Notes under the pieces: model-generated
Told to the model about the DNA's origin: nothing
Databases searched by the model: none
The model's input: only the letters and a program-made list of their open reading frames with translations
Shown: positions 2,265 to 62,543 of the stretch, piece after piece
How positions within the stretch are numbered: the first letter of the stretch is position 1
Layout of the letters: each line of letters begins with the position of its first letter
Position numbers and translations under genes: made by a program
From: Franzmannia pantelleriensis
GTDB lineage: Bacteria; Pseudomonadota; Gammaproteobacteria; Pseudomonadales; Halomonadaceae
Reading direction: 5' to 3'
DNA length: 64,000 nt
NCBI RefSeq assembly: GCF_900102875.1
Contig: NZ_FNGH01000006.1
Span: forward strand, 124,001 to 188,000

Positions 2265-3008
2265 CTACTCCTCGTCCAGCTCTTCCGCCGCATCGGCATG
2301 CGACAGGCGTAGACCTTGCGGCGGCAGCGGCATGCCGTCGAGGGTCGGACCCTGCTGCCCAAGCTGCAGTCGGCCCTCGAGGAACCACTTGATGGCGATG
2401 GGATAGATGAGGTGCTCGCGGAGGTGGACCTTGTCCTTGAGCGAGGCGGCGTCATCCTCGGTATCCACCGCAACCGCAGCCTGTACCACCACGGGTCCGC
2501 CGTCGAGCTCCTCGGTGACGAAGTGCACGCTACAGCCGTGCTCGGTGACGCCATCGGCCAGCGCCCGGGCGTGGGTATCGAGCCCCTGATAGGCGGGTAG
2601 CAGTGAGGGGTGGATATTCAGTAGGCGGCCGTAGAAACGCTGAACGAACACCGGGGTGAGGATGCGCATAAAGCCGGCCAGCACGATCAGGTCGGGCTCG
2701 TGGCGCTCGATCACCTTGATCAGGGCGCCGTCGAAGGCCTCGCGGCTGTCGTACTCGCGATGCGGCAGCGCTACGGCGTCGATGCCGGCGTCGCGGGCAC
2801 GCTTGAGGCCATAGGCGTCGGCCTGGTTGGAGATCACCGCGACGATCTCACCGCCCAGCTCATCGTAGGACTGGGCGTCGATCAACGCCTGGAGGTTGCT
2901 GCCGTTGCCGGAGATCAACACCACCACGCGGCGCGCCTGACTGGCCTCGGCGCTGAAGTCGTTGAGGGTGTCGCTGGCCGGGGTGGGGGCGTCGCCGCTG
3001 CTGCTCAT
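2265..3008 (-). CDS. purN: Phosphoribosylglycinamide formyltransferase
   Basis: Third step of de novo purine synthesis: transfers a formyl group from 10-formyl-THF to GAR. At 247 residues it is longer than the enterobacterial enzyme (about 212). The extra residues are a disordered Ser/Ala/Asp-rich N-terminal leader of about 27 and an acidic tail. The core has [23 protein letters not shown], the catalytic NIHPSLLP (Asn, His) and EELDGGPVV (Asp). The start overlaps the purM stop by 4 bp (ATGA, 3005-3008), so the two are translationally coupled. Confidence 0.97.
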
Positions 3009-4087
3009 GCCGAAAGGTTCTCCAGTTGGACCTGGGCTTCATCGCCGTGCCGAGCGGTGATCTCGCCGAGCCGATAGACGCGCTCGCCCTGCGTCTCCAG
3101 ATGCGCTTGTGCGGCCTCGGCCTGATCGGCGGACACCACCACCACCATGCCCACGCCGCAGTTGAGCACGCGATGCATCTCATGCTCGTCGACGTTGCCC
3201 TGCTGCTGTAGCCAGTCGAACACTGCCGGACGGCGCCAGCGCGTCACGTCGACGTGGGCGGTGAGGTTGTCGGGGAGTACGCGGGGGATGTTCTCGAGCA
3301 GGCCGCCACCGGTAATGTGTGACAGCGCATGTACCTCGACGCCGCTCTCCTTGATCAGCGACAGCAGCGACTTGACGTAGATGCGGGTCGGGGCGAGCAG
3401 CGCCTCGCGCAGCGGCTGGCCGTCGAGCTCGGTGTCCAACGGGACCGCGGCGACGTCGAGAATCTTGCGAATCAGCGAATAGCCGTTGGAGTGTGGGCCG
3501 GAGGAGGCCAGGCCGAGCAGCACGTCGCCGGCGGCGACCTTGGTGCCGTCGAGGATCTCGGATTTCTCGACCACGCCGACACAGAAGCCGGCCAGGTCAT
3601 AGTCGCTGCCTTCGTACATGCCCGGCATCTCGGCGGTTTCGCCACCGACCAGGGCGCAGCCGGCCTGGAAGCAGCCTTCGCCGATGCCGGTCACCACGTC
3701 GGCGGCGATGTCGACATCCAGCTTGCCCGTGGCATAGTAGTCGAGAAACAGCAGCGGCTCGGCACCGGCCACCACCAGGTCGTTGACGCACATCGCCACC
3801 AGGTCGATGCCGATGGTGTCATGCTTGTCGAGGTCCATGGCCAGGCGCAGCTTGGTGCCGACGCCGTCAGTACCGGACACCAGCACCGGCTCACGATAGC
3901 CGCTGGGCAGTTGGCACAGCGCCCCGAAGCCGCCGAGACCGCCCATTACCTCGGGACGAGTGGTACGCTTGGCAACGCCCTTGATGCGCTCGACGAGCGC
4001 ATTGCCGGCGTCGATGTCCACGCCGGCGTCCTTATAGCTGAGGGACGTCTGGGACGGCTGGGAGGAGTCGGACGAGCTGCGGGTCAT
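3005..4087 (-). CDS. purM: Phosphoribosylformylglycinamidine cyclo-ligase (AIR synthetase)
   Basis: Fifth step of purine synthesis: FGAM + ATP gives AIR. I place the start at ATG 4087 (360 residues). The frame stays open upstream, but those codons encode no family sequence and run into the promoter region. Family motifs include [42 protein letters not shown] and HITGGGL. First gene of a purM-purN pair; the perM-hda unit diverges from it, a common pseudomonad layout. The N-terminal 13 residues are Ser-rich and probably disordered. Confidence 0.97.
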
Positions 4088-4139
4088 GACCAATCCTGTC
4101 GAAATGCGGCGAGAAAGATAGGGTGAAAATGCGGCGTGA

Positions 4140-4148
4140 ATTGTAGCA
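4140..4148 (-). promoter_or_regulatory. Candidate extended -10 promoter of purMN
   Basis: On the minus strand TG-C-TACAAT (4140-4148) fits an extended -10. I see no good -35. It lies 53 bp ahead of the purM ATG. No PurR-type palindrome was recognised. Confidence 0.4.
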
Positions 4149-4236
4149 TCACCTGACAGCGCTCGCACCGCCGGTGCGTGGCAAATGCATGGGGTAGCGC
4201 CCACAGGAGTGGCGGATCTGCACCAGGGAGTCGAGG

Positions 4237-5313
4237 ATGCGCAGAGAGTGGTGGTTGCTGGCCGTTGCGGTCGGCTTGGTATGGCTGCTGATGCAGCTCG
4301 AATCGATGTTGATGCCGTTTATCGCCGGGATGATCATCGCGTACCTGGGCGATCCACTGGCCAATCGCTTGCAGCGCTGGGGGCTGTCGCGGCCGATGGC
4401 GGTCAGCGGGGTGTTTCTGGTGATGATCCTGGTGCTCGGCATCAGTCTGCTGATCCTGATTCCGCTGACGGTGCAGCAGACGCGGCAGTTTGGCGAGGTG
4501 GTGCCGACCATCTTCGCGTGGTTCGAGACGGTACTGGCACCCCAGCTGCAGGCCTGGACCGGCTACGACCTCAGCGCCGAGCTCGACAACCTGCAGGAGA
4601 CCCTGGCCGAGCACTGGCAGGAAGCCGCCGGCCCCGCGGCGGAGATACTCGGGCGCGTCGGGCGCTCCGGGCGCGCGTTCCTGACCTGGATCACCTACCT
4701 CTCGCTGGTGCCGGTGGTGGCGTTCTACCTGCTGCTCGACTGGGAGCGCCTGCTGCACAACATCCGCAGCCTGCTACCGCGACAGTGGGAGCCGGATGTG
4801 ACGCGTCTGGCCAAGCGCTGCGACGAGGTACTATCGGCCTTTCTACGTGGCCAGCTGCTGGTGATGCTGTGCCTGGGGGCGATCTATGCGCTGGGCTTGA
4901 CCTTGATGGGGGTGCGCTTCGGCCTGTTGATCGGCCTGATGGCGGGCCTTGCCAGCATCGTGCCGTTTCTGGGCTTTATCGTGGGTATCAGCGTGGCGCT
5001 GGTGGTGGCGTTTTTCCAGTTTGGCAGCTGGCTGGCGCTGCTAGGCGTGGTGGCGGTGTTCAGCATCGGCCAGGCAGTGGAGAGCACGGTGCTACAACCC
5101 AAGCTGCTCGGCGACAAGATCGGGCTGCACCCGGTAGCGGTGATCTTCGCCGTGCTGGCCGGTGGCAATCTGTTTGGGTTTACCGGGGTATTGCTGGCGT
5201 TACCCGCCGCCGCAGTCATCATGGTACTATTGCGAGAGGTCAAGGAACGCTACAAAAACAGTACCTTATATGATGCCGCGCGGAATGGCGGCAGTGACGA
5301 GGAGCCCCCATGA
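4237..5313 (+). CDS. PerM/AI-2E-family integral membrane protein
   Basis: 358-residue inner-membrane protein of the AI-2E exporter/PerM family (PF01594), with about seven hydrophobic segments: two near the N terminus (residues about 5-35), one at 55-80, then a polar periplasmic-like stretch, then five from about 150 to 340. The substrate of this subgroup is not established; the family includes TqsA (AI-2) and Na+/H+ antiporters. It is divergent from purM and overlaps hda by 4 bp (ATGA), as in Pseudomonas and its relatives. Confidence 0.85.
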
Positions 5314-51314: not shown

Positions 51315-51439
51315 GATAGGGCCCTCATCAAGTGTCTAAGCCAGGACGTTGCCTGGTCGCCGTATGCAGCTGATCCGCTGACGGCGCCAGTCGCATGTCG
51401 CCCCGGTTCTCGCGGTAACCATATGAATGGGTGCTGCGG

Positions 51440-51468
51440 ACTATACGTGAAACTGTCGACAATGTTAA
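51440..51468 (-). promoter_or_regulatory. Promoter of acnB
   Basis: TTAACA (51463-51468), 17-bp spacer, TATAGT (51440-51445) on the minus strand. The 5' untranslated region would be about 120 nt, long enough for regulation by a small RNA or Fe-S-responsive binding; no specific element was recognised. Confidence 0.65.
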
Positions 51469-51612
51469 GGAAGCGCGGCGTGGTGGGCCTTCAACTTTGG
51501 TCGGCGCGCCGTGCGAAGGTGGGGGCGGGGACGATATCGAGGATGCCTCTAAGGCCTCGACGCGGTACCATCGGCGCCGTGAATTCGTCTGAGTGATTCA
51601 GTGGGGAGACGC

Positions 51613-52047: not shown

Positions 52048-52098
52048 CCCCCATTGTCTACATCCAACCGCCACTTAATGATGCAAGAGAATCTGACC

Positions 52099-52737
52099 AT
52101 GCAAGACTCCCCGGAGGCGCTGCTGCCCGAGTCGCTTACGCATTTTCTGCGCTGCCCCACGCCCGATGCCTGGGTCGCGGCGGCGCTCGCCAATGAAGAA
52201 TTGCTGCTGATCGACCATGCGCAGTGTGAGAAGAAGGCCGCCTCGACGGCGATGAGCCTGATGTACCGCTACGTAGATCGGCCGCTGCTGCTGACCAAGA
52301 TGTCGCAGCTGGCCCGGGAAGAGCTGCTGCACTTCGAGCAGGTCATCAAGATTATGGAGACCCGTGGCGTTACCTACCGCCATCTCAGTGCCTCACGCTA
52401 CGCTGAAGGACTGCGCCGTGAGGTGCGGACTGAAGATCCGGCGCGGCTGGTCGATATATTGATCATCGGGGCCTATATCGAAGCGCGCAGCTGTGAGCGC
52501 TTCGCGCGGCTGATTCCGCACCTCGACGCTGAACTTGCCAAGTTCTATCGCAGTCTGGTTAAGTCGGAAGGGCGTCACTTCGAGGACTACCTGATGCTGG
52601 CGCGCCGCTACGCAGACGAGGGAGGCGATGCCGACGTCGAAGCACGCATTGCTTTCTTCGCCGAGTGCGAAGCCGAGTTGATCAACTGTGAGGACAACGA
52701 GTTTCGTTTCCACAGCGGCTTGCCACGCGCCGCATGA
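52099..52737 (+). CDS. miaE: tRNA-(ms2io6A)-hydroxylase MiaE
   Basis: Non-haem di-iron monooxygenase that hydroxylates the 2-methylthio-isopentenyl adenosine at tRNA position 37. 212 residues from ATG 52099 (AAGAGA 7-8 bp ahead); ATGs at 52078 and 52081 are alternatives. Ferritin-like helices carry the metal ligands: NEELLLIDHAQCEKKAAS, REELLHFEQVIKIM, IGAYIEARSCERF, and SEGRHFEDYLMLA. Salmonella MiaE is longer; this short form is typical of pseudomonads. Confidence 0.93.
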   Translation: MQDSPEALLPESLTHFLRCPTPDAWVAAALANEELLLIDHAQCEKKAASTAMSLMYRYVDRPLLLTKMSQLAREELLHFEQVIKIMETRGVTYRHLSASRYAEGLRREVRTEDPARLVDILIIGAYIEARSCERFARLIPHLDAELAKFYRSLVKSEGRHFEDYLMLARRYADEGGDADVEARIAFFAECEAELINCEDNEFRFHSGLPRAA

Positions 52738-52790: not shown

Positions 52791-55700
52791 ATGATGCGGG
52801 AACCACCTGTCAACGAGCAGTTAGCGCTATTCGGTCACTTTTCTCTGATGCTCGGCGAGGACAGCCTTTCCCAGTTCAGTTACGACAAGGTCAAGGCCTT
52901 GCTGGTCTATCTGCTGCTGCATCGCCAGCCCGTCAATCGCTCGACCCTGGCCGAGCTGCTGTGGCCCGACCAGGGGCTGTCGTCAGGGCGTACCAACCTG
53001 CGCCACGCGCTGCACTGCCTGCGCCAGTCGCTGGGCGACCAGGCTGAACGGGTGCTGGTGGTGTCGCGTCAGACCATCGCCTTCAAGCTGCCCGAGGAGT
53101 GGGTGTTCGATCTCTATCAGCTGCAGGAGATGCTCGACGCACCCGCCGATCTCACCAACCTTGAAGCGATCCTCGACATCTATCGCGGTGATCTGGTCGA
53201 AGAGCTGCAGCTGTCGGCCTGCGCCGAGTTCCAGCGCTGGTTGCTACGGGTGCGCAACGAGTGGCGTCAGCGGGTCATTGCCTACGCCGAGACCGTGCTC
53301 GAGTCCCACGACGCGGTGCCTGAACCGCTGCTGCGTGCCCTGGTAAGCCGTTTTTCCGGCTACGGTCCCTTCCACGAACGGTTGGTGCGTCAGCTCGCCG
53401 AGCAGGGCCAGTCGGCGGCGGCCCATGAACAGTACAATGCCTATCTGCAACTGCTGGCGCTGTCCGGCCAGCAGCCCGAGCCAAACTTCCTGCAGCTGGC
53501 TCGCCACTGGTCGGACGGAAAAGGAGAGCTGCAGCGACTCTCGCCCCAGGGCGCCTTCTCGCGGGCGCTGGCCGCCGATAGCTCGCCGCTGCGCGACGAC
53601 GAGATCGAGCAGCGCCAGCTGTCAGTGATGGCTATCCGGCTGCGCCTCAAGGGGGAGTGGCAGGATCGCGCCGAAACCCGCGCCTGCCTGACGCTGCAGA
53701 TCGAACTGATGCGCTGGCTCGAGCAGCAATGTCACCACCTGGGGGGGTTCTGGCTGCCGGGCGCTACCGGTGGTCTGGGGCTGGCCTGCTTCGGTACCCA
53801 CGGCCCGGCGCACCAACTGGCCGAACTGGTGGCGCTCTACGAACACTGCCGGCGCACGCTGCCCGACGAGAGTGCGCGCCACTGGAGCGGCGACGGCGCG
53901 ATTCCTTCCTTCGAGCTGGCCGCCGGCCTCAACAGTGGCCGGGTGGTATATCTGCCTGAGCGCCAGCTGGTCGACCCACTCGGTCAGGTCACCCAGGTAT
54001 CGCTGGAGCTGATGAGCGCCGCGGAAGGCAGCGAACTGGTGATCTCCCAGGAGTCGAGCCAGCACATGCCACCGGCGCTCGACCTCCAGCCGCGGCTGTC
54101 ATCGCGGCTGCTGGCCAGTGACGGCAAGGTTCGCCTGCGTGCCTTGGTCCTGGGTACCAACGAAGGTGGCCGCGAGGCGCTGCCGCCGAGCCTGATCGGC
54201 CGTGAGCCGGCGCTGCGCAAGCTGCGCGACGCCCTGGCGCGGGCCGGTATCGGTCTGCGCCAGAGCGTGCTGGTGCGCGGTGCCTCGGGGATGGGCAAGT
54301 CGGCGCTGCTAGTCGGCTTTCGCCAGATCGAGCAGAGTCGTGACGCCGCCGTATGCTGGCAACCCACCACCCGGCTATCGGTGCAGATGCCCTACGGTGT
54401 GGCACGCCAGCTGCTGCACTGGCATCTGGGCGATGCCGTCGACAGTCAGGCATTTGGTTTGCTGCTCGAGCAGCTGCCGGGTTTCAGCCCGGATGACGAC
54501 AAGCGTCAGCTGCTCGAGGAGGCGCTTGGCGTGCGCGAACCCGAAGAGCTCTCCGCGGTGACCCAAAGTGGCGAGGCGGTGGAACTGGTGGTCAACCTGA
54601 TGCAGCGGCTGATCGAGTTGCTGACCCAGGAGCGGCCGCTGGTGATGATGATCGATGATCTGCAGTGGCTCGACGAGCTGTCGTTCAAGGTGCTCTCGGG
54701 ATTGCAGGCACGGCTACCGATCAACTGCCCGCTGCTGATCGTGGCCAGCCATCACGGCCGCGAGCCGCTGCCGGCCAAGCTGCACTGGGACCAGCAGATC
54801 GCACTGGGTCGGCTCGACGCGCTGCAGTCGTCGCGGCTGCTGTCGCAGTTGGCGCGTCGCTATCGGCTGCACCTCAGCCCGCGCTTGCGCAATCAGCTGA
54901 TCGAGCGCTGCGACGGTGTGCCGCTCTACCTGCAGGAGATCTGCCGGCGCCTCGACATGGATCGCCGTGAGGGGCGCAGCGTGCAGCTCGACGAACTGCC
55001 CCGCGGCCTGCTGGGGCTGCTCGCCAGCCGCATCGATCAGCTCGATGTGGACCGCGAGGTGGCCCATGTGGCGGCGGTGCTGGGGCGCCAGTTCCGGCTC
55101 GATTTCCTGGTCGAATGCAGCGGCTGGGAGCCGGCCCGCCTCAAGCAGGCGCTGGAGCAGATGTGCCGGCTCGAGGTCATCGAGGTCTGTGACGGCGGCA
55201 GCGAGTTCGACTACCAGTTCAGCCACCAACTGCTGCAGGAAGCGGCCTATCTGTCCTGCCCACGTGACCTGCGCATGCGTATTCACCTGCAGGTGGTCAA
55301 CCTCATCGAGGAGCGTTTCCCGATGTGGATCAGCCGGCACCCCGGCGACTTCGCCACTCACCTGCGGCGCAGCGGCCACTATGCGCGCGGTGCGCGCTAC
55401 TTCGAACTGGCCGCCCGCGAGGCGCTCAAGGTCAGTGCTAACCGCACCGCGCTGAAAATGGCCGATTCCGGGCTTGCCAGTCTGCGCCACGTCAACGACC
55501 AGGTCGAGCGTGAGATCAGTCTGCTCACGGTGCGTGGCCAGGCGGCGTTTGCCCTTGAGGGTCACGGCTCGCCGACTGCACACGAGAGCTTCGTGCGTGC
55601 CCGCGAGCTGATGGCGTGCGACAGCAACGAAACGTTGGCCGATGAGGAAGCGGATCTCGAGCAGCGTTTCCTGGTCAAGTGGGGCCTTTGGGTGGGCTGC

Positions 55701-56690
55701 AGCCAGCGCCATGCTCATGCCGATGCCTTTTCGCTGGCCTCCAATCTCGCCGATCTGGCGGCGCGCCTCGACGACGTGCGCTATCAGCGCCTCGCTGACT
55801 ATGCCCAGGCGACCTGTGAATACTGGGCGGGGCGTATTCGCCAGGCCTACGACCACCTCGAGGAGATCGACCCGCTCAACCAGTCGATGCTGATCGAGTG
55901 GCTGCCGTTCTCCGACCATCCTCAGGTGGCAGCGTCCTGCTATCAAGGCTGGGCGCTGTGCCTGCGCGGTGACTACCGCCGCGCCGAGCAGCAGGCCGAG
56001 GCTGCCATCCGTCTCGCTGAGCGCTTCAAGCATCCCGGCTCGCTGGCTATGGCGCTGCTGTTCTCGGCCGCGGTCTATCGCCAGCTGGGACACGTGCATC
56101 TGGCCGGCATGCGTGCCCAGCGCGCCTTCGAACTGACCGGCACCCCGGACCTGCACCTTTGGCAGGTGTCATCCCAGAGTCTGATCGGCTGGCAGAGAGC
56201 CCTGGCCGGTGACGCCGAAGGCCTGGTGATGCTGCAGGCGGGGATGGAGGAGTTCGATGAAGTGACCGGTCGCGAGCGATACACCCGCCCGGTACTGTGG
56301 TACGTGGATGCCTGCATGGCACTTGGCGAATACGTCCGCGCCGAGGATTACCTCGACCAGTGCCTACTGGTGGCCCAGGAGCGCGGTTCGCTCTACCTCC
56401 CGGAAATTGCCACCCAGCTGGCACGGGTTCGCCATCAACTGGGGCATCCCCGCGACGCGGTCAGGACGCTGGCAGAACAAGCCTTGTTGCAGGCTCGTGA
56501 GCACGAGAACCTGCATCAGCAGCTGCACGCCCTGGAGCTATGGCTGACGCTTATCGACCCGTCGGATGGCAAAGCGCGAGATGACTTCCGGCGTCTGCTC
56601 AGCGAGGTCTCGCACAGCGACGCGCCGGTATTGGTACGCTGGCGCAACCTGTTGGACCAGCGCGTACCGGCGAGCGCTGATAACGCCTGA
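52791..56690 (+). CDS. Large SARP/BTAD-like regulator with cyclase-like, AAA ATPase and TPR regions
   Basis: 1299 residues, single gene. Order read from sequence: N-terminal winged-helix/BTAD region (about 1-245; YDKVKALLVYLLLHRQP, LAELLWPD, TNLRHALHCLRQSL), as in SARP-type activators. Residues about 275-430 resemble a class III nucleotide cyclase (LGLACFGTHGPAHQLAEL, AGLNSGRVVYLPERQLVDPLG, SAAEGSELVIS), but the metal-binding Asp loop reads GATGG, so it is probably catalytically dead. AAA_16-type ATPase: Walker A GASGMGKS (497-504), Walker B VMMIDDLQWLDE (618-629). TPR-like repeats occupy about 860-1290. Expected to be a signal-integrating transcription activator (SARP, MalT-like STAND). Ligand and target genes are unknown. 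Confidence 0.8.
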   Translation: MMREPPVNEQLALFGHFSLMLGEDSLSQFSYDKVKALLVYLLLHRQPVNRSTLAELLWPDQGLSSGRTNLRHALHCLRQSLGDQAERVLVVSRQTIAFKLPEEWVFDLYQLQEMLDAPADLTNLEAILDIYRGDLVEELQLSACAEFQRWLLRVRNEWRQRVIAYAETVLESHDAVPEPLLRALVSRFSGYGPFHERLVRQLAEQGQSAAAHEQYNAYLQLLALSGQQPEPNFLQLARHWSDGKGELQRLSPQGAFSRALAADSSPLRDDEIEQRQLSVMAIRLRLKGEWQDRAETRACLTLQIELMRWLEQQCHHLGGFWLPGATGGLGLACFGTHGPAHQLAELVALYEHCRRTLPDESARHWSGDGAIPSFELAAGLNSGRVVYLPERQLVDPLGQVTQVSLELMSAAEGSELVISQESSQHMPPALDLQPRLSSRLLASDGKVRLRALVLGTNEGGREALPPSLIGREPALRKLRDALARAGIGLRQSVLVRGASGMGKSALLVGFRQIEQSRDAAVCWQPTTRLSVQMPYGVARQLLHWHLGDAVDSQAFGLLLEQLPGFSPDDDKRQLLEEALGVREPEELSAVTQSGEAVELVVNLMQRLIELLTQERPLVMMIDDLQWLDELSFKVLSGLQARLPINCPLLIVASHHGREPLPAKLHWDQQIALGRLDALQSSRLLSQLARRYRLHLSPRLRNQLIERCDGVPLYLQEICRRLDMDRREGRSVQLDELPRGLLGLLASRIDQLDVDREVAHVAAVLGRQFRLDFLVECSGWEPARLKQALEQMCRLEVIEVCDGGSEFDYQFSHQLLQEAAYLSCPRDLRMRIHLQVVNLIEERFPMWISRHPGDFATHLRRSGHYARGARYFELAAREALKVSANRTALKMADSGLASLRHVNDQVEREISLLTVRGQAAFALEGHGSPTAHESFVRARELMACDSNETLADEEADLEQRFLVKWGLWVGCSQRHAHADAFSLASNLADLAARLDDVRYQRLADYAQATCEYWAGRIRQAYDHLEEIDPLNQSMLIEWLPFSDHPQVAASCYQGWALCLRGDYRRAEQQAEAAIRLAERFKHPGSLAMALLFSAAVYRQLGHVHLAGMRAQRAFELTGTPDLHLWQVSSQSLIGWQRALAGDAEGLVMLQAGMEEFDEVTGRERYTRPVLWYVDACMALGEYVRAEDYLDQCLLVAQERGSLYLPEIATQLARVRHQLGHPRDAVRTLAEQALLQAREHENLHQQLHALELWLTLIDPSDGKARDDFRRLLSEVSHSDAPVLVRWRNLLDQRVPASADNA

Positions 56691-60817: not shown

Positions 60818-62419
60818 TCAGGCGCTGTGCGACTGGTCGCGGAACACCGCCCCGTCGCCATAGTGGACAATACGGCCGCGTCCGGCACGCTTGGCAACAT
60901 ACATCGCCTGGTCGGCGGCCTGGATCAGGTCGTCGGCGTCGACAAAGTCGCCGTCAGCCAGGCTCACCACACCCATCGATGCACTGACGCGAATCTCGCT
61001 GTGGTCGACGCTCCTTGCCAGCGCGTGCGTCGCCATGCGCTGCTGCAGCGTCTCGGCGAGGCGTGTGGCGGCCTCGCGCCCGCCGCCCGGCAAGAACAGC
61101 AAGAACTCCTCCCCGCCATAGCGCCCGCCCAATACCGTCGGACTCATCAACTCCCGCAGCAGGCCGGCGAAGCCCTTGAGCACCTCGTCGCCGAGGCGAT
61201 GCCCGTAGCGGTCGTTGAGCTGCTTGAAAAAGTCCAGGTCGATGAACACTAAGCTGAGCGCCAGGCGTTGATCGAGCGCCTCACGGAAGTGCTGCTCGAG
61301 CAGGGCTTCCAGATGGGCACGATTGTAGAGGCCGGTGAGGGTGTCATGGCGCACTCGCTGGGTGAGATCGGCCTGACGCTGATGCAGGCGCTCGAGCTCC
61401 AGGTGCTGGTCGAGCAGCTGCTGGCTGAGCTTGAGGTGGTGGGCATGCAGCTGCTGCTTGGCCCTCAGCAGGGTGCCGATGGCATCGAATCCCACCGGGC
61501 AGGTGATGTGCATCAGCTCGGCGGTGGTCGGCAGGGTGTCCTGCAGGCCACACAGTCGCTCGATCAGTGCGTCTTGATCGATCTCGAGGGTACTTGATAG
61601 ACGCTGCAAAATACGGATCATCAGCGTATCGTCGGCGGAGACAGACTCTGCAAGGCCGTCGAGCCAGGCCTCGGCCAACGGTCCCGAGGCGTTCACGCAG
61701 CGTTGTTCGGTGGTGGTCTGAGCGAGTGGTAGGTGGCTGTCGGCGATCCCGCGCACCAGTCTTTTGGGTAATCCCCAGTGTTGAGCAAGCCAGGCCCCGA
61801 CCAGGGCGTGATCGCAGCCCCACGCCTTGAGCTCGGCGGCACTCAGTGCCTCATGGTGCTCGGTGCTCGACAAGAGGGCCGCATAGCCCCGTGGCAGGCA
61901 GGCATCCAGGGCCAGCATGCCGATATCCTGCAGTAGCCCCAGCGTGAAGGCGCGGCCCGGTGACGGGTGCGCCAGATGCTTGGCCAGCATGTGGCTGGTC
62001 AGGGCGCTGATCAAGGCACGCTGCCAGAAACGGTTCAGGTCAAGGCCGGGCACCCGCGTCGACTGTTGCTGTGCGAGGCCGAAGCCGAGTGCCACCGACA
62101 GCGTCGCATCGACCCCCAGGCGGGTAATTGCCTCATGGCAGGTCTCGACCGGGGTGTCGTAGGCGTGAAAAACACTGTTGGCCAGTCCCAGCATGCGCAG
62201 CGTCAGCGCCGGGTCGCGCTCGATGACGGCGGTGAATTCCTGCAGGTTGGTATCGGGAGAGTCGGCCAGGGTGACGATCTGCATCACGACACTGGGCAGC
62301 GAGGGCAAGCCGCAGTGTGTGTTCAGTACCTCGGCCAACGCCTCGGGTAGCGTCACGGGGGTGTCGTCTGGCCCGGCAGCGCGGCCCGTAGCGCTGTCTT
62401 GCTTTACGAAGGGGGGCAT
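60818..62419 (-). CDS. HDOD-GGDEF diguanylate cyclase
   Basis: 533 residues from ATG 62419 (GGAG 7 bp ahead); the open frame extends 39 codons upstream. HDOD domain about 30-240 (LPSLPSVVMQIVTLADSP, AITRLGVDATLSVALG, GLLQDIGMLALDACLP). A coiled-coil linker spans about 320-355, then a GGDEF domain (about 360-525) with FIDLDFFKQLNDRYGHRLGDEVL and the active loop GGEEF (RYGGEEFLLFL), so it should make c-di-GMP. An RxxD inhibitory site is not evident at the standard position. Borders the flagellar cluster. Confidence 0.88.
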   Translation of the reverse strand: MPPFVKQDSATGRAAGPDDTPVTLPEALAEVLNTHCGLPSLPSVVMQIVTLADSPDTNLQEFTAVIERDPALTLRMLGLANSVFHAYDTPVETCHEAITRLGVDATLSVALGFGLAQQQSTRVPGLDLNRFWQRALISALTSHMLAKHLAHPSPGRAFTLGLLQDIGMLALDACLPRGYAALLSSTEHHEALSAAELKAWGCDHALVGAWLAQHWGLPKRLVRGIADSHLPLAQTTTEQRCVNASGPLAEAWLDGLAESVSADDTLMIRILQRLSSTLEIDQDALIERLCGLQDTLPTTAELMHITCPVGFDAIGTLLRAKQQLHAHHLKLSQQLLDQHLELERLHQRQADLTQRVRHDTLTGLYNRAHLEALLEQHFREALDQRLALSLVFIDLDFFKQLNDRYGHRLGDEVLKGFAGLLRELMSPTVLGGRYGGEEFLLFLPGGGREAATRLAETLQQRMATHALARSVDHSEIRVSASMGVVSLADGDFVDADDLIQAADQAMYVAKRAGRGRIVHYGDGAVFRDQSHSA

Positions 62420-62543
62420 GCCGGGTCTCCGTCCCTGCTGTGCCAGGCGCCGCGAAGACCAAAAGGACAGCGTGCTTACCTGACTAATGTTATATCGGTG
62501 TAACCGACTATTAATCAGGCGTTGCGTTGAGGTCAAGGCCGGA

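Follow-up and report, generated by a model that had tools for sequence, protein, structure and literature searches.

The gene described here lies in a 64,000-nucleotide stretch of the Franzmannia pantelleriensis genome (NCBI RefSeq assembly GCF_900102875.1, contig NZ_FNGH01000006.1, positions 124,001 to 188,000; hereafter, the window) and encodes a 1299-residue regulator in which a SARP effector, a class III cyclase fold lacking catalytic residues, a STAND ATPase, and a TPR superhelix are predicted to follow one another. SARP regulators are best known from Streptomyces, where they switch antibiotic clusters; the present one is fixed and syntenic in a family of halophiles, the Halomonadaceae, and stands beside a tRNA-modification gene. 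We consider it probable (about 0.68) that the protein is an AfsR/MalT-type STAND activator that contains the pseudocyclase as a structural or allosteric module, the SARP effector being held at rest and freed by inducer and ATP. In the resting state, the ATPase and TPR parts would restrain the effector; an inducer would bind the TPR sensor, ADP would be swapped for ATP, and the released SARP would bind repeated sites over the −35 region and recruit RNA polymerase, in line with reports on AfsR and MalT. The pseudocyclase, located between effector and switch, would make no cyclic nucleotide and would most likely act in protein contact or dimerization and as an allosteric relay of the state of the switch to the effector.

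The open reading frame at 52791–56690 on the forward strand, which the first-pass annotation had proposed from the sequence, was confirmed as real. It starts with ATG, and among the best 80 of 147 relatives found by a search of genome contigs (65–94% identity), the match was at least 1280 residues long in 79, the other (L064) ending at a contig end. Members shorter than 1200 amino acids (aa), L064 among them, were excluded from the family alignments. AlphaFold models of aa 1–466, based on a 44-row alignment of family members (mean confidence score, pLDDT, 80.7), and of aa 458–1296 (pLDDT 86.8; predicted template modeling score, pTM, 0.78), together with a fold search, bore out the architecture of SARP/BTAD, cyclase, AAA, and TPR that had been read from the sequence.

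Support for BTAD from the sequence of the window protein itself is borderline. The BTAD profile (PF03704, cut-off 22.1 bits) scored 24.3 bits in a genome search and 20.8 bits, under the cut-off, in an hmmscan of aa 1–466, and BTAD was not listed at E ≤ 1 in a Pfam scan of the whole protein. Among 44 family members at E ≤ 0.1, it was found in 33 and Trans_reg_C in 35. The AlphaFold model settled the question in favor of the SARP helix-turn-helix (HTH)-BTAD fold: modeled aa 7–245 matched AfsR of Streptomyces coelicolor (8k60_I) with a Z-score of 17.3 over 228 aligned residues (4.8 Å, 22% identity), and EmbR was also among the fold-search matches of the N-terminal part. A 17-row profile of the wider group found EmbR (E = 1e-21) and AfsR (E = 2e-21). 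We mapped the residues named for AfsR (PMC10936776) onto the window protein by hand from the alignment. The DNA-contacting W74, R87, and R94 of AfsR are retained as W58, R71, and R78, and its HTH acids D71 and E76 correspond to the acidic E55 and D60.

The cyclase part is not recognized by Pfam in the window protein. However, the model of aa 271–458 matched Pseudomonas aeruginosa CyaB (3r5g_A; Z-score 18.6, 179 aligned residues, 3.9 Å, 18% identity), and cyclases headed the Foldseek list. The two folds that structure prediction had been proposed to check, BTAD and cyclase, are thus both present in the models; the first-pass annotation had correctly placed a cyclase-like domain from residue 270 but ended it at 430, whereas the fold extends to about 458. 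The wider-group cyclase profile matched class III cyclases, including human soluble adenylyl cyclase (ADCY10; E = 3.5e-12). In an alignment to active relatives, the window protein has R283, G327/328, Q402, and E406 in place of the two metal-binding aspartates (Asp1 and Asp2) and of the Asn and Arg that act in the transition state. The catalytic decay claimed earlier for the Asp loop, now GATGG, holds for all four tested positions; GATGG sits in the hairpin in which genuine cyclases have their second metal Asp. The domain is a class III cyclase by its predicted fold, lacks the two Asp, the Asn, and the Arg that define the enzymes, and is, judged from these residues, catalytically dead.

This part of the protein is nevertheless as constrained as the DNA-binding HTH and is therefore not debris. 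Mean identity to the window protein across 106 members was 0.84 for the cyclase-like domain, 0.82 for the HTH, 0.745 for AAA, 0.73 for TPR, and 0.71 for BTAD. The median ratio of nonsynonymous to synonymous substitution rates (dN/dS; 100–112 usable pairs per domain, of 150 drawn from 277) was 0.025 for the HTH and 0.028 for the cyclase-like domain, with 0.051 for TPR, 0.057 for AAA, and 0.059 for BTAD. Columns that are at least 98% uniform number 75 of 188 in the cyclase-like domain, 36 of 100 in the HTH, and 85 of 301 in AAA.

The C-terminal two-thirds carries the putative switch and sensor. Pfam detected AAA_16 at aa 468–651 (E = 4e-23), and G500, G502, K503, and S504 of Walker A, as well as D622 and D623 of Walker B, are invariant in the 44 rows. 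The best Foldseek match of the ATPase model was the STAND protein 6mfv (E = 1.5e-10); CED-4 (Z-score about 19) and Apaf-1 were also matched. TPR_MalT was detected at aa 1036–1245 (E = 3e-6), below its cut-off, and the modeled TPR superhelix is closest to MalT domain III (1hz4; Z-score 25.8, 350 aligned residues, 3.9 Å). A predicted NOD ATPase fold, intact Walker A and B motifs, and a repeat-type sensor place the protein among the STAND ATPases.

The proposed mode of action follows that of AfsR and MalT. In AfsR, the SARP part sits as a dimer on direct repeats and makes contact with sigma region 4, the beta flap, and the C-terminal domain of the alpha subunit, while the NOD and TPR parts inhibit the SARP and ATP binding relieves the inhibition; for MalT, inducer and ATP are reported to act jointly (PMC10936776). 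AfsR shares the SARP effector, NOD ATPase, and TPR with the window protein but is described in the same source as SARP-NOD-TPR without a cyclase fold and differs in base readers and acidic BTAD contacts. E. coli MalT has the same combination of a STAND ATPase with a TPR sensor but neither a cyclase nor a SARP domain. The HTH of MalT is located at the C-terminus.

Several observations weigh against an AfsR/MalT-type activator with a pseudocyclase. The base readers T88 and R92 of AfsR correspond to H72 and C76, its phosphate contact K95 corresponds to Q79, and its acidic BTAD contacts D245/E246 are not retained (all by hand mapping). Contact with RNA polymerase is only putative because the BTAD acids are changed, and, given the altered base readers and acids, a DNA site different from that of AfsR is expected. 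The pTM of the aa 1–466 model, 0.52, is uninformative on domain arrangement. Family-only profiles found neither a cyclase nor a SARP among PDB sequences, giving one spurious match to NblA (0.29). A profile of 18 cyclase domains from SARP-less proteins gave the window protein only 10.1 bits (independent E-value, iE, 6e-4, the set numbering 31) and missed its relative L125; it found the cousins outside the Halomonadaceae clearly, with 34–257 bits. When the cyclase domain of the family was used alone as a profile, only the source genome and one other (G014) were matched among 369 gammaproteobacterial genomes. The cyclase identity of the Halomonadaceae family thus rests on the predicted fold and is weak by sequence.

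A retained and strongly constrained cyclase fold is also what a binding pocket would require, and cyclic AMP (cAMP), cyclic GMP, cyclic di-GMP (c-di-GMP), or a nucleoside triphosphate in the old active site might gate the SARP. The Mclx1–3 proteins of Mycobacterium tuberculosis (Rv0386, Rv1358, Rv2488c) likewise join a cyclase to AAA in a putative regulator, and two of the three, Mclx2 and Mclx3, lack some catalytic residues and were proposed to bind ATP or cAMP; these proteins, compared here by description only, differ in that a C-terminal LuxR HTH takes the place of the N-terminal SARP and that Mclx1 is active (PMC4452763). Such a nucleotide sensor, suggested in the first-pass annotation, is rather unlikely in the present case, as all four tested catalytic positions are altered and the source genome contains no match to PF12633 (class I) or PF00211 (class III), other cyclase classes not having been searched. 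By the latter result, cAMP is probably not produced by enzymes of these two classes; this makes it a less likely ligand and leaves ATP, GTP, and others unaffected. We know of no c-di-GMP binding by this kind of fold. Because some enzymes of class III work with non-canonical residues, the domain might still be active through unusual residues or, alternatively, be decaying without function; the loss of both metal ligands together with the Asn and Arg speaks against the former, and the dN/dS of 0.028 and the 75 nearly uniform columns against the latter, making both highly improbable.

The effector and ATPase halves resemble those of the Streptomyces regulators PimR, SanG, and FilR, in which a SARP is joined to an ATPase half homologous to guanylate cyclases and LAL regulators (PMC3367932, PMC10972967), and the protein could accordingly be a SARP-LAL pathway activator of a secondary-metabolite cluster. 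This is very unlikely: those proteins, compared by description only, are cluster-linked and said to lack the cyclase signature, as stated for the C-terminal half of PimR (PMC3367932), whereas the present gene neighbors the core genes miaE, acnB, queC, and queE and occurs in 44 of 61 family genomes, unlike a cluster-bound regulator. A TOMM-system kinase/cyclase-type protein that serves a peptide-modification system is scarcely credible, even though TIGR03903 (NCBIfam; kinase-cyclase-AAA-TPR) spans aa 254–1239 with E = 1e-57 and the cyclase is followed by AAA and TPR in both. The score of 195.5 bits is far below the cut-off of 705.75 and is mostly due to AAA-TPR, 185 bits remaining when the cyclase is omitted; TOMM proteins have a kinase where the SARP stands, and Pfam detected no kinase family at E ≤ 1. 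ADCY10 also has a cyclase followed by AAA and TPR, with a second cyclase domain in the position of the SARP. It is matched by the wider-group cyclase profile, but it is catalytic.

The modules and the idea of a SARP-STAND-TPR regulator are known already, as are LuxR-headed cyclase-AAA regulators with lost residues (Mclx2 and Mclx3). Judged by titles and abstract openings, no paper found dealt with SARP-cyclase-STAND proteins of proteobacteria; PMC2447327, a survey from 2004 that contains 'BTAD' twice, may mention a BTAD-cyclase fusion. In PMC13297067 and PMC13021748, 'BTAD' is only a journal code. A BTAD regulator of denitrification, DnrS, is described in Thermus (PMC5748679). For the AfsR/MalT-type activator favored here, our weak guess is that the regulon belongs to carbon metabolism or respiration and not to an antibiotic cluster.

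The first-pass annotation had regarded such proteins as mostly actinobacterial, and we discarded this view along with the idea of a rare actinobacterial import. Of 274 gammaproteobacterial genomes, 130 have a match to BTAD (PF03704) at E ≤ 0.001 (best E ≤ 1e-9 in 57), many of the weak matches probably being TPR cross-matches (one was PelB), and the four-part layout was present in 13 and absent from 7 of 20 long BTAD proteins hand-picked from other gammaproteobacteria. Fifteen of the 20 were scanned with Pfam, and 3 of the 13 exceed its cyclase cut-off. None of these 13 has both metal Asp; Asp1 is kept in L162, L167, and L170, and Asp2 in L161. The cyclase profile was built with all 13, and its matches to them are hence by construction; a recheck with the profile from 18 SARP-less proteins detected 30 of the 31 proteins that carry a SARP, at iE < 1e-3 for that set. 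A cyclase-blind query with the SARP only, run on 299 genomes of the phylum, gave 30 loci, nine of them with a cyclase right after the SARP (L215, with a weak 22-bit cyclase match further along, was left out). Both metal Asp were present in none of the nine, four of which duplicate proteins or families collected before. Altogether, the proteobacterial SARP-cyclase-STAND proteins outside the Halomonadaceae (L159–L171, L239–L245, L279–L283, L285) share the domain order of the window protein, and both metal Asp are kept in 4 of these 27; they differ in the cyclase part, which is about 16–22% identical (13 compared).

Loss of the metal Asp was compared between cyclase-STAND proteins with and without a SARP. 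In a first tally, both Asp were kept in none of 24 proteins with the SARP and in 16 of 18 without it. After 270 genomes and 20 hand-chosen regions from the class of G724 had been added, the counts were 4 of 31 and 28 of 30, so that at least one metal Asp is lost in 27 of 31 SARP-cyclase-STAND proteins versus 2 of 30 SARP-less ones. The first 18 SARP-less controls came from a search with a profile of dead domains, and their intactness is therefore not a selection effect; later controls were hand-picked. The enlarged tally and the tree comprise 61 proteins with an AAA match longer than 150 aa and a cyclase match longer than 120 aa, duplicates removed; this selection excluded L208 and the six proteins of L284 and L286–L288. 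L244 was found by the cyclase profile, and L245 and L279–L285 by SARP or SARP-cyclase profiles. None of the 20 gammaproteobacterial proteins (4 representing the Halomonadaceae and 16 others) keeps both Asp, compared with 4 of 11 proteins from other classes. All four residues are intact in L280 (DDNR), His replaces Asn in L281 and two L282 proteins, which have both Asp, and L241, L242, and L245 have Asn for Asp1 and retain Asp2. Some proteobacterial genomes have at least two SARP-cyclase-STAND proteins (L282 in G901, L241 and L245 in G724, L162–L164 in G216), in one case on the same 13 kb stretch.

The six SARP-cyclase proteins without a STAND match (L284, L286 and L287 with two each, L288) retain both Asp in five cases, and the sixth has Asp2, its Asp1 falling outside the aligned part. 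They are 770–950 aa long, stem from the class of G724, and occur in two cases as two on one 7.5–9 kb stretch; they may be active cyclases to which a DNA-binding head is attached. The notion that every SARP-fused cyclase is dead, which held for the first 24 proteins, was thus broken by L280, L281, and the two L282 proteins, and also by these STAND-less ones. From the residues at hand, Asp loss appears to follow the SARP-plus-STAND setting, mainly in Gammaproteobacteria, and not SARP fusion as such, as a tendency rather than a rule.

A single origin of the SARP fusion was rejected by the approximately unbiased test (p = 4e-5; AAA tree of the first 41 rows, with long branches present), and the combined SARP-dead label must have changed at least five times along branches with good support in the AAA tree of 61 rows. 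Independent-pair tests agreed in direction (about 3.5 of 4 pairs) but were few and not significant (three pairs, median p = 0.25; four pairs, median p = 0.125). Deep branches are weak, and the stem of the Halomonadaceae in the AAA tree is very long (2.03 changes per column). A tentative and somewhat doubtful generalization is that proteobacterial cyclase-STAND-TPR proteins repeatedly gained a SARP head, that the cyclase there tends to become a conserved coupling pseudoenzyme, and that the Halomonadaceae protein is a strongly fixed example; the retention of the metal Asp in most STAND-less SARP-cyclase proteins lowers its odds. The partly degraded L241, L242, and L245 from another proteobacterial class and the L280–L282 proteins with both Asp would form a natural series from enzyme to regulator part. 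If the Halomonadaceae pseudocyclase does couple switch and effector in an AfsR/MalT-type activator, it would represent a previously unstudied type of non-catalytic signaling domain. As an extra domain without enzyme function that is constrained like the DNA-binding part, it makes the role of a non-catalytic class III fold testable in a chromosomal gene of non-pathogenic Halomonas.

Full-length or near-full-length orthologues are present in 44 of 61 Halomonadaceae genomes (the source genome and a split copy in G045 counted), with hosts including Halomonas, Litchfieldella, Vreelandella, Billgrantia, Modicisalibacter, and Cobetia, whereas the remaining 36 genomes of the order have none; the family has possessed the gene for a long time. 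The orthologue of H. elongata strain 153B is locus L080. The first residues of the G010 copy are in a different frame. The G045 copy (L327, about 3823–4904) is split by about 1.1 kb; one of its halves contains a stop, and the halves match at 55% and 62% identity.

The surroundings of the gene are also conserved. In 80 loci, some of them on contigs that end early, the neighbors were miaE (80), acnB (74), queC (61), and queE (56). In all 94 loci assessed, which include the source genome and come from two data sources that may overlap in genomes, miaE lies directly upstream on the same strand at an estimated median gap of 27 bp (21–196), and the two genes are probably co-transcribed as one transcript. 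The earlier statement that no neighboring gene reveals the target overlooked this constant neighbor, although miaE is a lead and not a target. Dependence of miaE on the regulator was rejected, as miaE is present in 60 of 61 family genomes and the regulator in 44; all nine regulator-less miaE regions fetched contain no regulator remnant. Outside the Halomonadaceae, no miaE match was found in the available stretches around SARP-cyclase-STAND genes. The features are listed in Table 1.

Table 1. Position in the window of the regulator gene, its predicted domains and motifs, and the adjacent miaE
Feature	Position	Strand	Residues	Basis
Whole gene, SARP - pseudocyclase - STAND ATPase - TPR regulator	52791..56690	+	1299 aa	
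Winged HTH of SARP effector	52812..53090	+	aa 8-100	AlphaFold model (AF2), AfsR/EmbR match
BTAD helical bundle	53091..53525	+	aa 101-245	
Class III cyclase fold, catalytic residues lost	53598..54164	+	aa 270-458	CyaB match, residues, dN/dS
GATGG, hairpin that bears second metal Asp in active cyclases	53760..53774	+	aa 324-328	
STAND/NOD ATPase	54186..55376	+	aa 466-862	AAA_16; 6mfv, CED-4, Apaf-1 matches
Walker A GASGMGKS	54279..54302	+	aa 497-504	Sequence
Walker B LVMMIDDLQWLDE	54639..54677	+	aa 617-629	Sequence
TPR superhelix, MalT domain III-like, likely signal-binding part	55482..56645	+	aa 898-1285	1hz4 match
miaE, tRNA ms2i6A hydroxylase, constant upstream neighbor	52054..52737	+		PF06175, E 1e-77

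PADLOC gave nothing at E ≤ 1. An HDOD-GGDEF protein encoded at 60818–62536 on the reverse strand of the window was matched in 17 of the 80 loci, and nothing points to a connection with the regulator.

A palindromic element, GAAACTGTCGACAATGTTAAG, lies in the intergenic region at 51315–51600 of the window (core near 51450–51465), between acnB and the divergently oriented DUF1289-miaE-regulator genes. The 9-mers CAATGTTAA, AATGTTAAG, ACAATGTTA, and GACAATGTT occur in all 75 upstream regions (6 of 81 loci had no usable upstream region and were left out), the best shuffled 9-mer reaching 4. The reverse complement of GAAACTGTCGACAATGTTAAG resembles the palindrome ATTGTCGACAAT predicted for P. aeruginosa PrpR (PMC9765439), and the element was set aside as a SARP site, since it resembles this motif and is not a direct repeat. 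One perfect copy and one variant of the palindrome are located elsewhere in the source genome (C30:30634–30774; L349:2135–2275), a short distance before the probable ATG of a gene for a GntR-type regulator (L349, 2219–2992), which is followed by a PrpB-like gene (2934–3917); both names were assigned by reading the sequence. Because these copies precede GntR-type and PrpB-like genes, the site by acnB probably represents an operator of the methylcitrate type.

The source genome also encodes a second SARP/BTAD-like regulator of 804 aa (L126:7357–9771, reverse strand). Its gene is divergent from a cysteine synthase gene (TIGR01139), and the C-terminal part of the synthase reads as glutaredoxin-like.

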